From: Hippea alviniae EP5-r
GTDB taxonomy: Bacteria > Campylobacterota_A > Desulfurellia > Desulfurellales > Hippeaceae
DNA length: 64,000 nt
Reading direction: 5' to 3'
Assembly (NCBI RefSeq): GCF_000420385.1
Contig: NZ_ATUV01000001.1
Coordinates: 620,001-684,000, forward strand
Within the stretch, counting starts at the first letter, position 1. The number at the start of each line of letters is the position of its first letter. The notes below the pieces were generated by a model, which worked only from the letters and a program-made list of their open reading frames with translations, was not told the DNA's origin and did not search any database. Below are positions 123 through 6,536 of the stretch, piece after piece. The position numbers and the translations under genes were made by a program.

Positions 123-1832
123 CTATTTAACTAAAAAGGCATCCTTAAGCGTATAGGACATATATCCATTCTTTATGTATGCATAAAACGCCACATCATA
201 CACATGCCCAACGCTCAGGTTCAGTTTATCAAAACTTACCATCCATAAACTCGCCGTTCCATCATCAAGAAGGTATTTTGGATATTTGTCAAGAATTAAG
301 CCAACATCCTTTACAATGGCGTTTCTTGAGAAGAACAATGGCTCTTCGTTTGAATGACCAAACGGTTCAAGCAGGCTCAACTCTTCCAAAAACTGCCTGT
401 TAAACACATCAAACGAAACTTCGCACTCAATATCATAACTTGCCGTTGGCACATAATCCCTATATCTCTCTTTTGCTATCTCGTTAATTCTCTCCTTAAA
501 TTTATCTAAATACTTATTCTTTATCGTTATACCAACAGCCATTCTATGACCGCCAAATCTCTCAAGAAAAACTTCGGTCTCTTTTATGAGAGAAAATAGG
601 TCTATATCTCCGGCACTTCTGCCACTGCCTATGCTTATCTCTTCGCCTTTGCTTACAATAATTGCAGGTTTTTTGTATTTGTATGATATGGCATTTGCCA
701 CTATTCCTATGACGCCTTTGTGCCAATGTCTATCTGCTGCGACAATAACCAAATCATCTGTATTTTCGGCTAATTTTTGAACTTCCGATACTATCTGCAT
801 CTGAAGTTTTCTTCTTTCGGCATTTATCTGTTCAAGCTTTCTTGCTATTAGCTCTGCTTCCTTCTCATCTTCCTTCATGAACATATCAACAACTATTGAA
901 GCATCGGATAGTCTGCCCGCTGCGTTTATCTTTGGCGCTATAACAAAGCCTACATGTTTTGATGTTAAGTTTCCTTCTATGCCCGAAACCTTCTTTAGAA
1001 GCTCAAGCCCAACAGTTGAGTGTTTCTTGTTAAATAAACCAACCTTTACACAAACCCTGTTCTCATCTAAAAGTGGGACGATGTCTGCAAGTGTTCCAAG
1101 AGCAACAAGGTCTAAATACTTCTTCAAGTTTGGCTCTTCCATAGAGTCAAAAAAACCCATCTTTCTAAGCCTGTTTCTTAATGCCATGATAAGATTGAAT
1201 GCAACACCAACACCTGAGAGCTCTTTAAATGGAAACTTTGAGTCTCTCCTTTTTGGATTTACTACGGCAAATGCATTCGGCAGACTCTCCTGCGGCTCGT
1301 GATGGTCTGTAATTATCACATCTATGCCAACATTCTTTGCAAACTCAACTTCGTCTATGCTTGTGATACCGTTGTCAACGGTGATTATTAACCCGGCTTT
1401 TGTTTGGACGGCCTTTTTAATTGCTTCAAGGCTTAACCCATATCCTTCATCCCTTGTTGGTATGTAAAAGCTTGCATTTACACCTATTTCTTTAAAGAAT
1501 TTGAGCAGAAGGCTTGTTGATGTGACACCGTCGGTGTCGTAATCACCTACAACAAAAATCTTCTCTTTTCTTCTTATCGCCATAATAATTCTATCGACGG
1601 CTATGTCCATATCCTTAAGAAGAAACGGATTGTATAACTGGGAAAGGGAAGGATAGAGAAACTCTCTTATCTGATGCTCTGTTGTTATTCCCCTGTGTGA
1701 TAGGATTTTTCTTGTTATCTCGTATATGTTAAGCCTTCCAACCCTTATTAAAGGGTTTTTGAAGCACTCATCTTTGATTATGAGCTTTTTCTTTTCACCT
1801 GTTATGCTGTTCAGTTGAATTTCCCGTGCCAT
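123..1832 (-). CDS. recJ: Single-stranded-DNA-specific exonuclease RecJ
   Basis: A protein of about 569 residues of the DHH phosphoesterase superfamily. RecJ degrades single-stranded DNA 5' to 3' in recombination and mismatch or base-excision repair. Motif I DYDTDG lies near residues 97-102, the DHH motif (TDHHEP) near 176-178, and the DHHA1 motif GGHRMAVG near 425. The length matches the family (about 560-580). The reading frame is open to 1871, but the ATG at 1832 is preferred. It still lies inside the 3' end of the upstream argH-Nudix gene (38 nt overlap), so translational coupling is likely. The exact start is uncertain because no strong Shine-Dalgarno site precedes it. Confidence 0.93.
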
Positions 1833-3645
1833 ATTTTGAGAAATAGTCCTGCAGAATCTTTTTATGGTCAAAAACTATCGGTTCAGGTAAACTATTTTTA
1901 TCAAATAGACCTATTTCTAAAGCATCATCATCCGCTTTGGGTTTACCTTCGGCTTCTGCAACAAATACGGTGGTTATTGTGTGCCCTCTTGGGTCTCTGT
2001 CTGGGTCGGAATAGACGCCAAGCAGACCCTTAAGCTTAACATCAAGCGATGTCTCTTCCTTTGCTTCCCTTACTGCTGCACTTTCGGCTGACTCTCCATA
2101 ATCTATATATCCGCCCGGTATTGCCCATCCATAAGGCTCGTTTTTTCTTCTTATTAAAACAATCTTGCCATCAACTTCAATAATTATATCAACCGTTGGG
2201 ATAGGGTTTTTATAAGCCTTTACAGGATAACCACATCTTGGGCATTCAATCGTATTGCCATCTTCTCTTGTTGACAGCTCTTTTTCTATCTCTTCAATCA
2301 CCTTAAGCACATTCTCTTTTGCCGTTCCACCATAGCTTGTTCTTGAATTTACAGCTTTCTTGTAATGCAGAACATTGATTATGTCGCTTTCTATGAGTTC
2401 TGAGAACTTCTTTAACTCTTCTATGCTTAGTTCGTTCAATTTTTTGTTGTTTTGTTCAGCATAAGCTACAATTTCACCTGTTATCTTGTGTGCTTCTCTG
2501 AAAGGAATACCTTTTCTCGTCAGATAATCTGCCAAATCCGTTGCCGTTATAAAACCCTTTTCTAAAGCTTTTTCTAACACTTCTTCTTTTGGCTTTATCT
2601 TTGGTATAAATCCATTTAAAACATCCAAAATGCCAAAAATTGTATCGATTGAGTCAAATAGTGATTCCTTATCTTCCTGCATGTCTCTGTTGTATGTTAA
2701 AGGTAAACCTTTCATTAATGTTAAAAGCTGGATGAGATTGCCGTATGTTCTTGCCGTTTTTCCACGCACAAGTTCCATTGCATCGGGATTTTTTTTCTGT
2801 GGCATTATGCTTGAGCCTGTACAGAACTCATCGGGCAAATCAACAAAATCAAACTCTTGAGATGAGAATATAACCATCTCTTCGGCAAATCTTGATGCAT
2901 GCATAGCACAGATTGCTATATCGTTTAAAAACTCAATAGCAAAATCCCTATCCGAGACTGCATCCATTGAGTTTCTTGATATCTTTGAAAACTTAAGCTG
3001 TTCTGCAACGAATTTTCTATCTATCGGGAAGCTTGTGCCTGCTAAGGCTCCGCTGCCCAAAGGCAAAACATCAATTCTTTTTATCGTATCTTTGAATCTC
3101 TCTTTATCCCTTTTGAATTTTTCATAATAGGCTAAAAGATAATGGGAAAATAGAACGGGTTGGGCATGCTGAAGATGGGTAAAGCCCGGCATTACAACAT
3201 CGACATACTTTTTTGCAAGCTCAACGATGTTTTTCAAGAGTTTATTTAGTCTGTCTATTATCTCAATTGATGCATCCCTTAAAAATAGCCTTATGTCTAA
3301 AGCTATCTGGTCGTTTCTGCTTCTTGCTGTGTGAAGTTTACCACCGACTTTGCCAACAAGTTCTATCAGTTTTCTCTCTATGTTCATGTGTATATCTTCA
3401 TCTTCTATGCGAAACTCAAACTCACCTTCATCAATCATGTGCTTTATTTTTCGTAAGCCTTCTATGATTTTATCTGCTTCTTCGTCGGTTATGATGCCCT
3501 GTTTTGCAAGCATCTGAGCGTGAACAATCGAGCCTGCTATGTCGTATTCATATAATCTTTTGTCATAACTTATCGATTCTGAAAACTTCTCCATTACATT
3601 GTCTGTGGCAGACGAGAACCTTCCACCCCACAGTTTTTTATTCAT
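1795..3645 (-). CDS. argH: Argininosuccinate lyase fused to a C-terminal Nudix hydrolase domain
   Basis: Residues 1 to about 457 are a complete argininosuccinate lyase, the last step of arginine synthesis. Visible are KLWGGRF at the N-terminus, the HTARSRNDQ region and the fumarase/lyase signature [11 protein letters not shown]. The frame then continues without a stop into about 155 residues of a Nudix hydrolase: a CPRCGYP knuckle, [17 protein letters not shown], and a Nudix box GGYIDYGE...REAKEETS in which the usual last glycine is serine. No ATG, GTG or TTG in the correct frame separates the domains, so the Nudix part appears to be made only as a fusion. The Nudix substrate is unknown; it resembles ADP-ribose/MutT-type enzymes. 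The gene overlaps hom by 8 nt and recJ by 38 nt. Confidence 0.93.
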
Positions 3646-4999: not shown

Positions 5000-6034
5000 T
5001 TATTCTTCTATGATTTTATCAACGACTTCTCCTATAGCTTTCAACTCTTTCATTAAATTGCAAAACTCTTCTATTGTCAACTGCTGAGCGGCATCGGACA
5101 CTGCTATCTGTGGATTGTAATGAACTTCTATCAGTAATCCATCTGCACCTGCTGCTATTGCTGCCCTTGACAATGCCGGAACATAGTCCCTTTTACCTGC
5201 AGCATGAGACGGATCTATGATTACAGGTAAATGCGTCTCTTTTTTCAAAACTGGAACGGCAGATATGTCAAGTGTGTTTCTTGTTGCCGTTTCGAATGTT
5301 CTTATACCCCTTTCACATAGGATAACATCTGCATTGCCTTCGCTCATTATATATTCTGCACTCATCAAGAACTCCTGAATCGTCGTTGCCATACCCCTTT
5401 TAAGTAAAACTGGTTTGTCGGTTTTTCCAACTTCTTTGAGCAGTGCGAAGTTTTGAATGTTTCTTGCACCAATCTGCAACACATCTGCATATTTAAGCAC
5501 AACATCTAAATCTCTTGGGTTCATAACTTCTGTTACAACGGGCATTCCTGTCTCTTCTGATGCTTCTTTTAAAATCTTTAGCCCTTCTTCACCCAATCCC
5601 TGGAAGCTGTAAGGTGATGTTCTTGGTTTGAATGCACCACCTCTTAACATGTGGGCTGAACATTTTTTTATGCCCAGAGCTGTTGTCATAACCTGTTCTC
5701 TGTTCTCAACCGAGCATGGACCAGCAATTACGGTGAATCTATTTCCACCTATTTTGACACCGTTTACATCAATGATTGTGTCTGAGTCTCTATGTTCTCG
5801 TGATGCTAACTTGTAAGGTTTAGATACCCTATGGACGCTTTCAACAGCTTTGTCAAGGGATAATACGGCAATCAAATCCAAATTCTCTGTTTTTGAGTCT
5901 ATGTCGCCTATTACACCTATAACCGTTTTTGTGCTACCCTTTGATATGTGGGCTTTAAGCTCTAAGCTTTCAATCTTCTCCTTTAGTCTTTGAATGTCTT
6001 CTTCTTTTGCTGTTGATTTCATTACAATTATCAT
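5000..6034 (-). CDS. aroF: 3-deoxy-7-phosphoheptulonate (DAHP) synthase, Thermotoga type
   Basis: 344 residues. It catalyses the first step of the shikimate pathway, condensing phosphoenolpyruvate and erythrose 4-phosphate. The N-terminal ~70 residues form the ferredoxin-like regulatory domain found in Thermotoga/Bacillus-type DAHP synthases ([15 protein letters not shown]). The barrel carries [28 protein letters not shown] and DPSHAAGKR. The ATG at 6034 is chosen because GGAGGTG lies 5 nt upstream; a longer open frame would begin inside that ribosome binding site. In related enzymes the ferredoxin-like domain gives feedback inhibition by aromatic amino acids. Here transcription also appears attenuated by an aromatic-rich leader peptide upstream. 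Confidence 0.95.
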
Positions 6035-6063
6035 TTTTACACCTCCCAATTAGAATTTCGGCC

Positions 6064-6117
6064 AATAAAAAAAGCCGTTTGGGTTGACCATCCTTGGGAT
6101 AGCCTACCCAAACGGCT
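6064..6117 (-). terminator. Attenuator terminator before aroF, with competing antiterminator
   Basis: In the reverse-strand RNA, a 12-bp perfect stem AGCCGTTTGGGT/ACCCAAACGGCT (6106-6117 with 6073-6084) closes a 21-nt loop and is followed directly by seven U residues (6073-6067): a strong intrinsic terminator 30 nt before the aroF ribosome binding site. The 5' arm contains CCGTTTGGG, which can instead pair with TTTAAACGG just after the leader stop codon (AAACGG at 6134-6139), using G-U pairs at the end. The two pairings exclude each other, as in trp/phe attenuators. Confidence 0.85.
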
Positions 6118-6146
6118 CGAAAACTAACAAGCTCCGTTTAAATAGA

Positions 6147-6227
6147 CTATCCCCCTCCTTTGAAAAACCAATAATAATAGTTAAATGTATAAAAATAACC
6201 CTTGAAACTTTTAGCCAATCCCATCAT
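6147..6227 (-). CDS. Aromatic-rich leader peptide of the aroF attenuator
   Basis: A 26-codon ORF beginning ATG ATG between a strong promoter and the attenuator terminator of the DAHP synthase gene. Eleven of 26 residues are aromatic: Phe at 8, 12, 15, 21 and 22; Tyr at 11, 13, 17, 18 and 19; Trp at 20. The core reads YFYTFNYYYWFF. This is the pattern of amino-acid attenuation leaders, here apparently sensing all three aromatic amino acids together. The stop codon lies 8 nt before the segment that forms the antiterminator, so a ribosome reaching the stop would cover that segment and favour termination, while one stalled at the aromatic codons would leave it free. The last sense codons also contain AAAGGAGGGGG, an internal Shine-Dalgarno-like run that might slow ribosomes. 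The function is inferred from sequence alone. Confidence 0.85.
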   Translation of the reverse strand: MMGLAKSFKGYFYTFNYYYWFFKGGG

Positions 6228-6236
6228 AGTGCAACC

Positions 6237-6265
6237 CTTATAGCACAAAGATTAAGTAATTGCAA
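6237..6265 (-). promoter_or_regulatory. Promoter of the aroF leader
   Basis: TTGCAA, 17-bp spacer, TATAAG reading toward the leader peptide. The expected start (about 7 nt after the -10 box) falls around 6230, only a few nucleotides before the leader ATG at 6227, so the leader would be translated from an almost leaderless RNA. Confidence 0.7.
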
Positions 6266-6266
6266 G

Positions 6267-6536
6267 TTATTTTTTGCTTTGTGTTTGATACAGAGCATCA
6301 AGATATTTACTTAAAATTTTGTTGAGCTTTTTCATTATCTGGTTTATCTCTTCTTCCTTAAAAACCAAATGGAGTTGTCTAAAATCAACTCCTTTGTAAA
6401 AAAGAACACCATTTTCCAAAGATATCTCGTCGTCTAACAAACTTTTAAATAGCCAATCGTTTGCGAATGTTTTCTCTATTCTATCTGCAAAGTAGTTTAA
6501 GTCTGCCACAATTTTACTGTTTATGTTTCTTTTCAT
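6267..6536 (-). CDS. Conserved-looking small protein of unknown function
   Basis: An 89-residue charged protein without membrane segments or motifs that I recognise. The start at 6536 is chosen because AAGGTG lies 4 nt upstream; the frame is open to 6554 but the extra codons lack a binding site. A plausible promoter (TTGATT, 16 bp, TAATCT at 6569-6596) precedes it. It ends 2 nt before the -35 box of the aroF leader promoter, so read-through into that operon is possible. Even spacing of Lys, Glu, Leu and Ile suggests a mainly helical soluble protein. Function unknown. Confidence 0.6.
   Translation of the reverse strand: MKRNINSKIVADLNYFADRIEKTFANDWLFKSLLDDEISLENGVLFYKGVDFRQLHLVFKEEEINQIMKKLNKILSKYLDALYQTQSKK

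Follow-up and report, generated by a model that had tools for sequence, protein, structure and literature searches.

A probable leader-peptide attenuator with phenylalanine, tyrosine and tryptophan control codons before the DAHP synthase gene of Desulfurellia

In Escherichia coli, the control of DAHP synthase is divided among three isoenzymes and repressors, and the ilvGMEDA leader has codons for each of the three amino acids made by one common pathway. A multivalent branched-chain leader has also been described in Corynebacterium, as a uORF at ilvB-II (PMC10272879). At aroF itself, the AroR leader of Corynebacterium glutamicum is described as containing the residues Phe-Tyr-Phe (Neshat et al. 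2014; PMC11802643, PMC4046766). Leader control of aroF has likewise been proposed for the uORFC-13-1 motif of Acholeplasma (PMC8632094). Merino's predicted attenuators include some before type I-beta DAHP synthase operons, for example in Thermus and Bacteroides (PMC1173090), and a suggestion that E. coli aroF has an attenuator dates from 1980 (cited in PMC2659441).

The locus described here lies in the window, a stretch of 64,000 nucleotides from contig NZ_ATUV01000001.1 of Hippea alviniae EP5-r. On its minus strand, aroF (5000..6034, ATG at 6034) encodes a 3-deoxy-7-phosphoheptulonate synthase of 344 amino acids and is preceded by the Shine-Dalgarno sequence GGGAGGTG (6040..6047, minus). The protein matches NCBIfam PRK08673 and combines a ferredoxin-like regulatory domain (PF18152, E = 4.9e-20) with PF00793 (E = 6.2e-89), which makes it a DAHP synthase of type I-beta, the Thermotoga type. 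Upstream of the gene and on the same strand, a −35 element TTGCAA (6260..6265) and a −10 element TATAAG (6237..6242) are separated by a 17-nt spacer, a TTG-17-TATAA layout that recurs in relatives, and are followed by the leader ORF MMGLAKSFKGYFYTFNYYYWFFKGGG (6147..6227; ATG at 6227, stop codon at 6149-6147), which holds five Phe, five Tyr and one Trp in 26 codons. Promoter, ORF composition and a Thermotoga-type enzyme with an N-terminal regulatory domain had all been claimed in the original prediction and are found as it read them. We consider that this arrangement is very probably a ribosome-mediated transcription attenuator that senses charged tRNA-Phe, tRNA-Tyr and tRNA-Trp together.

The leader ATG lies 9 nt 3' of the −10 box and leaves no space for a Shine-Dalgarno sequence. 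With so short a distance the transcript should begin at or just before the ATG, and the leader mRNA is thus predicted, from promoter spacing, to be leaderless. Across the Hippeaceae and Desulfurella loci the ATG stands 7-10 nt past the −10 box (for L093, L095 and L101 the spacing was read directly, the automatic scan having picked another site), and the loci of the third family (L105, L107) have 18 nt here. Next to this promoter, at 6267-6536 of the window, is an 89-residue gene with no Pfam or NCBIfam match; it is unlikely to be part of the attenuator system, because it is absent from the ORFs that precede aroF in L007.

Codons for Phe and Tyr are rich in T and A and the window has a GC content of 37.5%, so that a chance ORF in a T-rich intergenic region, combined with a terminator that simply serves the gene upstream, has to be weighed. 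The control-codon cluster YFYTFNYYYWFF (6162..6197, minus), however, has 10 aromatic residues in 12 codons, the densest such stretch among the 1821 window entries for ORFs of 10-50 codons, where the runner-up has 7. When the leader region was shuffled 2000 times with its dinucleotides preserved, no shuffle reached this density, the best giving 9, and the terminator is located beyond the leader's own promoter. Shuffling and the conservation set out below, which by itself already contradicts a chance ORF, lead us to reject this explanation as having a negligible probability. The leader region also has a more stable fold than 200 shuffled versions of it (z = −3.3).

Two mutually exclusive hairpins can be drawn between the leader and aroF. 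The intrinsic terminator (6067..6117, minus; about −32.9 kcal/mol) has a 12-bp outer stem (6117-6106 / 6084-6073), an 8-bp inner stem (6104-6097 / 6093-6086) and a T7 tract at 6073-6067, in agreement with the 12-bp stem and U7 tract that had been placed before the aroF ribosome binding site. The antiterminator (6096..6153, minus; about −33.6 kcal/mol) pairs a 5' strand at 6153-6128 with a 3' strand at 6119-6096. The motif AAACGG, proposed earlier as an antiterminator half, is indeed present after the stop codon, at a distance of 7 nt and not 8 nt, but the antiterminator is far larger than this motif, with about 24 pairs and the leader stop codon within its 5' strand.

We compared the locus with those of 25 genomes of the class Desulfurellia. 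In 21 of them, from three families, aroF is preceded by a short ORF with at least one Phe, at least one Tyr and at least one Trp codon (totals F83, Y93, W33), and every one of these leaders, in addition to a strong terminator hairpin (about −21 to −36 kcal/mol) with a U6-U9 tract, has a competing antiterminator with its 5' strand in the last part of the leader, on or near the stop codon. Had leader and stems not been conserved among near relatives, this would have spoken against the attenuator; both are conserved in the 21 genomes. A leader of this kind is lacking at aroF in three genomes of the class (L110, L111, L113); in L110 and L113, for which the upstream DNA was read, the gene lies directly behind another gene. 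In one further genome (G015) the best aroF match is only partial, and it is not counted among the 21. The peptides themselves differ in sequence, as seen in examples at genus level (MKEVSLKVSKVSFYFIYFNFNYYYWFFGGGG and MRRDVGIRVSFTYFFYTYYWFWQRGG), at family level (MSGSSILGRVFSYSFYAYYFWFFYRGRTT), and from the sister family (MEKFDSLLAIENINRSYWWYYFYSWQE) and a further family (MKVVCSFSHTYWYYFYFWGGSLPV). In leader stretches that can be aligned, the variable codon columns show 7, 3 and 13 changes at positions 1, 2 and 3, the pattern expected of a translated ORF.

Pairing was examined in a genus alignment (A1). In the terminator, 98.9% of the pair cells are standard and sliding the register cuts pairing to 24-53%; five pairs show compensatory change on both sides against 0.8 in shuffles, a comparison that the relatedness of the sequences on the tree inflates. 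The antiterminator is 77.5% paired, falling to 35-50% when the register is slid, and 10 of its cells changed on both sides against 4.9 in shuffles, with 6 of 500 shuffles reaching 10 and the same inflation applying; its middle pairs are weak or unpaired in several relatives. The stop codon (UAA or UAG) agrees in its third base with the antiterminator partner in nine of nine sequences, A standing with U in five and G with C in four. The terminator imposes no such covariation, since there the base stands opposite G whichever of the two it is. The compensatory stem changes that the original prediction had proposed to look for are thus present, in the double-changed terminator pairs and in the covarying stop codon.

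Long conserved hairpins with a terminator would also be compatible with an aptamer-based or protein-bound element, such as a riboswitch, a T-box or a TRAP-like site, in which the ORF would be incidental. We regard such an element as very unlikely. Searches of the leaders, in the window region and at the relatives' loci, gave no match to the Rfam T-box, Trp_leader or Phe_leader families or to other attenuator or riboswitch families, and a riboswitch or T-box known to Rfam is thereby ruled out. The codon-position pattern and the presence of Phe, Tyr and Trp in every leader speak against an incidental ORF, the antiterminator overlaps the ORF stop codon, whose third base covaries with its partner, and no conserved unpaired stretch resembling an aptamer was seen.

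A second way of using the same ORF would be a nascent-chain arrest peptide that responds to a free metabolite, as TnaC does, in place of stalling on uncharged tRNA. The order of the aromatic residues is partly kept within genera, as such a peptide would suggest, whereas among families sequence, length and residue order all differ while the aromatic content stays. Moreover, the Desulfurellia leaders have no fixed C-terminal motif, their tail residues following the antiterminator strand, and a biosynthetic gene should be induced by a low aromatic supply and not by excess. Arrest by the nascent chain therefore appears highly improbable. The reading as a leader-peptide attenuator in which codons for Phe, Tyr and Trp exert the control is in turn backed by the composition of all 21 leaders, by the third-position variation and by the pairings that are kept.

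To relate the ribosome's position to the two hairpins, RNA folding was computed with a ribosome placed at each leader codon. In the window RNA, about 20-22 antiterminator pairs formed when the ribosome stood at the late Tyr, Trp or Phe codons, and only 1.4 when it stood at the stop codon. A stall at Phe, Tyr or Trp kept the switch in 18-21 of the 21 leaders per amino acid over footprint edges of 9-17 nt; a single leader (L096) lacked a clear switch. As a control, the identical calculation on E. coli trpL yielded 5.1 antiterminator pairs on stalling and 0.2 at the stop. The locus thus has an ORF rich in codons for the pathway products, a terminator before the gene and an exclusive antiterminator that, in computed folding, is freed by a stall. 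At every ribosome position, the computed equilibrium favours the terminator over the antiterminator. Strict equilibrium switching is rejected on this ground, and the switch must be kinetic, relying on the order of folding during transcription, with the antiterminator forming ahead of the terminator as it does in attenuators already known. The antiterminator also forms in the free RNA without a ribosome, which would predict read-through when the leader is not translated.

The transcription start, translation, termination and amino-acid response that we infer for the aroF leader would follow this course. Transcription would begin just before the leader ATG. When all three tRNAs are charged, the ribosome would pass the aromatic cluster and reach the stop codon, where it would cover the 5' strand of the antiterminator; the terminator could then fold and RNA polymerase would halt about 30 nt before aroF. 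When the supply of even a single aromatic aminoacyl-tRNA runs low, the ribosome would stall in the cluster, upstream of the antiterminator 5' strand, and the antiterminator would form ahead of synthesis of the terminator 3' arm, so that aroF would be transcribed. The original proposal, in which a deficit of just one of the charged tRNAs could switch the gene on, agrees with the computed ribosome-position folding. The element would act as a logical OR at the sole enzyme committing carbon to the pathway, the trp operon having its own Trp-only attenuator.

An attenuator of this kind might nevertheless sense a single amino acid physiologically, either Tyr or Phe, with the other aromatic codons of minor effect. 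AroR gives reason for caution here by analogy: it contains Phe-Tyr-Phe, yet transcription changes with Phe limitation and not with Tyr availability (PMC11802643), and the window leader has just one Trp codon beside its runs of Tyr and Phe. Against this, Trp is present in all 21 leaders, which span three families, with as many as three Trp codons per leader, and adjoins the switch point, and stalls at Phe, Tyr or Trp predict an identical outcome. We therefore consider single sensing unlikely, and keep to an attenuator that would respond to all three aminoacyl-tRNAs.

No second DAHP synthase was found in the genome: there is no PF01474 (type II) protein, and the other PF00793 gene is KdsA. With AroF as the one enzyme at the pathway entry, a leader that takes account of all three end products makes sense. 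The trp operon has a Trp-only leader, MMSEFMFLSLKRNTILNNWWWQDS (L117:664-738), with WWW, followed by hairpins and a T-run; it starts 6 nt after a −10-like TAGTAT, a leaderless-type start. No leader was found at pheA of the same genome, which is preceded by a close upstream gene. Near the trp operon, divergent from trpE and adjoining a hydrogenase-like membrane gene, there is a fluoride riboswitch (Rfam RF01734, 46 bits; L117:520-583, minus). Downstream of aroF in the window, between it and the homoserine dehydrogenase gene hom, lies a promoter TTGACA-17-TATATT (4995-4967) with an 11/12 match; hom and argH may thus be transcribed separately from aroF, and co-control of hom by the attenuator is weakened by that match. 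The argininosuccinate lyase encoded at 1795-3645 of the window is fused to a C-terminal NUDIX domain, a fusion also present in L007.

Dense aromatic ORFs are also found beyond the class. At 33 of 74 aroF loci outside Desulfurellia, at least 7 aromatic residues occur in 12 codons, whereas the antisense strand gives 1 such locus and shuffled sequence would give about 1, a frequency that again speaks against chance. Examples come from Desulfuromonadales (FYFWYGFYFRPSARG) and Clostridium (FYFSWGFYFSAGYFF). These leaders look like the same logic in unrelated sequence. The leaders seen in Desulfurellia, Desulfuromonadales, NC10, Clostridium and other groups suggest that control of DAHP synthase by leader peptides is common and has been annotated too rarely. 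In the Desulfuromonadales leaders upstream of aroF (L016-L050, L062, L083), the peptide ends in a conserved tail, FxFRPSARG, whose coding sequence GGCCGTCTGCCC is able to pair with GGGCAGACGG on the 5' side of the terminator; the tail seems to be fixed by RNA pairing. Two Woesearchaeota loci (L044:2758-2838, L047:2688-2768) have before aroF a conserved, Tyr/Phe-rich ORF of 26 amino acids, MKAxxNSGxLNSGSFxLAYSFYYFSY, ending in a stop codon and beginning shortly past a TATA-like box. If these ORFs work as leaders, control of this kind would be unusual for archaea.

A fuller picture, put forward tentatively and rated somewhat below an even chance, is that starvation for Phe, Tyr or Trp would each independently induce the sole DAHP synthase from a leaderless mRNA, that an untranslated leader would antiterminate by default, the opposite of E. 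coli trp, and that aromatic-rich leaders working on this principle emerged at, or spread to, the DAHP synthase genes of several phyla. In an organism with one DAHP synthase, a single RNA element could in this way match entry into the shikimate pathway to the demand for three aromatic amino acids.

Among known systems, AroR resembles the Desulfurellia leaders as an aromatic leader peptide before a DAHP synthase gene whose stalled translation raises transcription. By its published description it differs in having only Phe-Tyr-Phe with no mention of Trp, in responding to Phe and not to Tyr, and in belonging to another phylum. The uORFC-13-1 motif shares the short ORF, the intrinsic terminator and a position exclusively upstream of aroF, but is described only as having at least one Phe codon, with no Trp or Tyr control described, and occurs in another lineage (PMC8632094). 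The terminator and antiterminator pairs predicted by Merino stand at the same type of operon, aroA-I-beta, although the accessible portion of that work describes no leader peptide and does not have Desulfurellia among its entries (PMC1173090). The E. coli trpL and pheL/pheST leaders have the same stall-versus-stop logic and mutually exclusive hairpins, reproduced for trpL in our calculation, but sense a single amino acid; the Desulfurellia leaders match neither Trp_leader nor Phe_leader in Rfam and have a predicted leaderless start. Our literature search, with most subscription journals outside it, found no description of a leader combining Phe, Tyr and Trp, or of a Desulfurellia leader. The claim that no leader of such composition had been described stands to that extent, whereas leader attenuation of aroF was already known from AroR and uORFC-13-1. 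Mixing all products of a pathway, held at first to be unusual, has no counterpart that we found for Phe, Tyr and Trp, but is known for the branched-chain leaders ilvB-II and ilvGMEDA, where a single leader likewise has codons for each of the three end products of one pathway, there with Ile, Leu and Val, at other genes and in other RNA sequences. With aroF leaders and three-amino-acid leaders both on record, the new part would appear to be the combination of Phe, Tyr and Trp.
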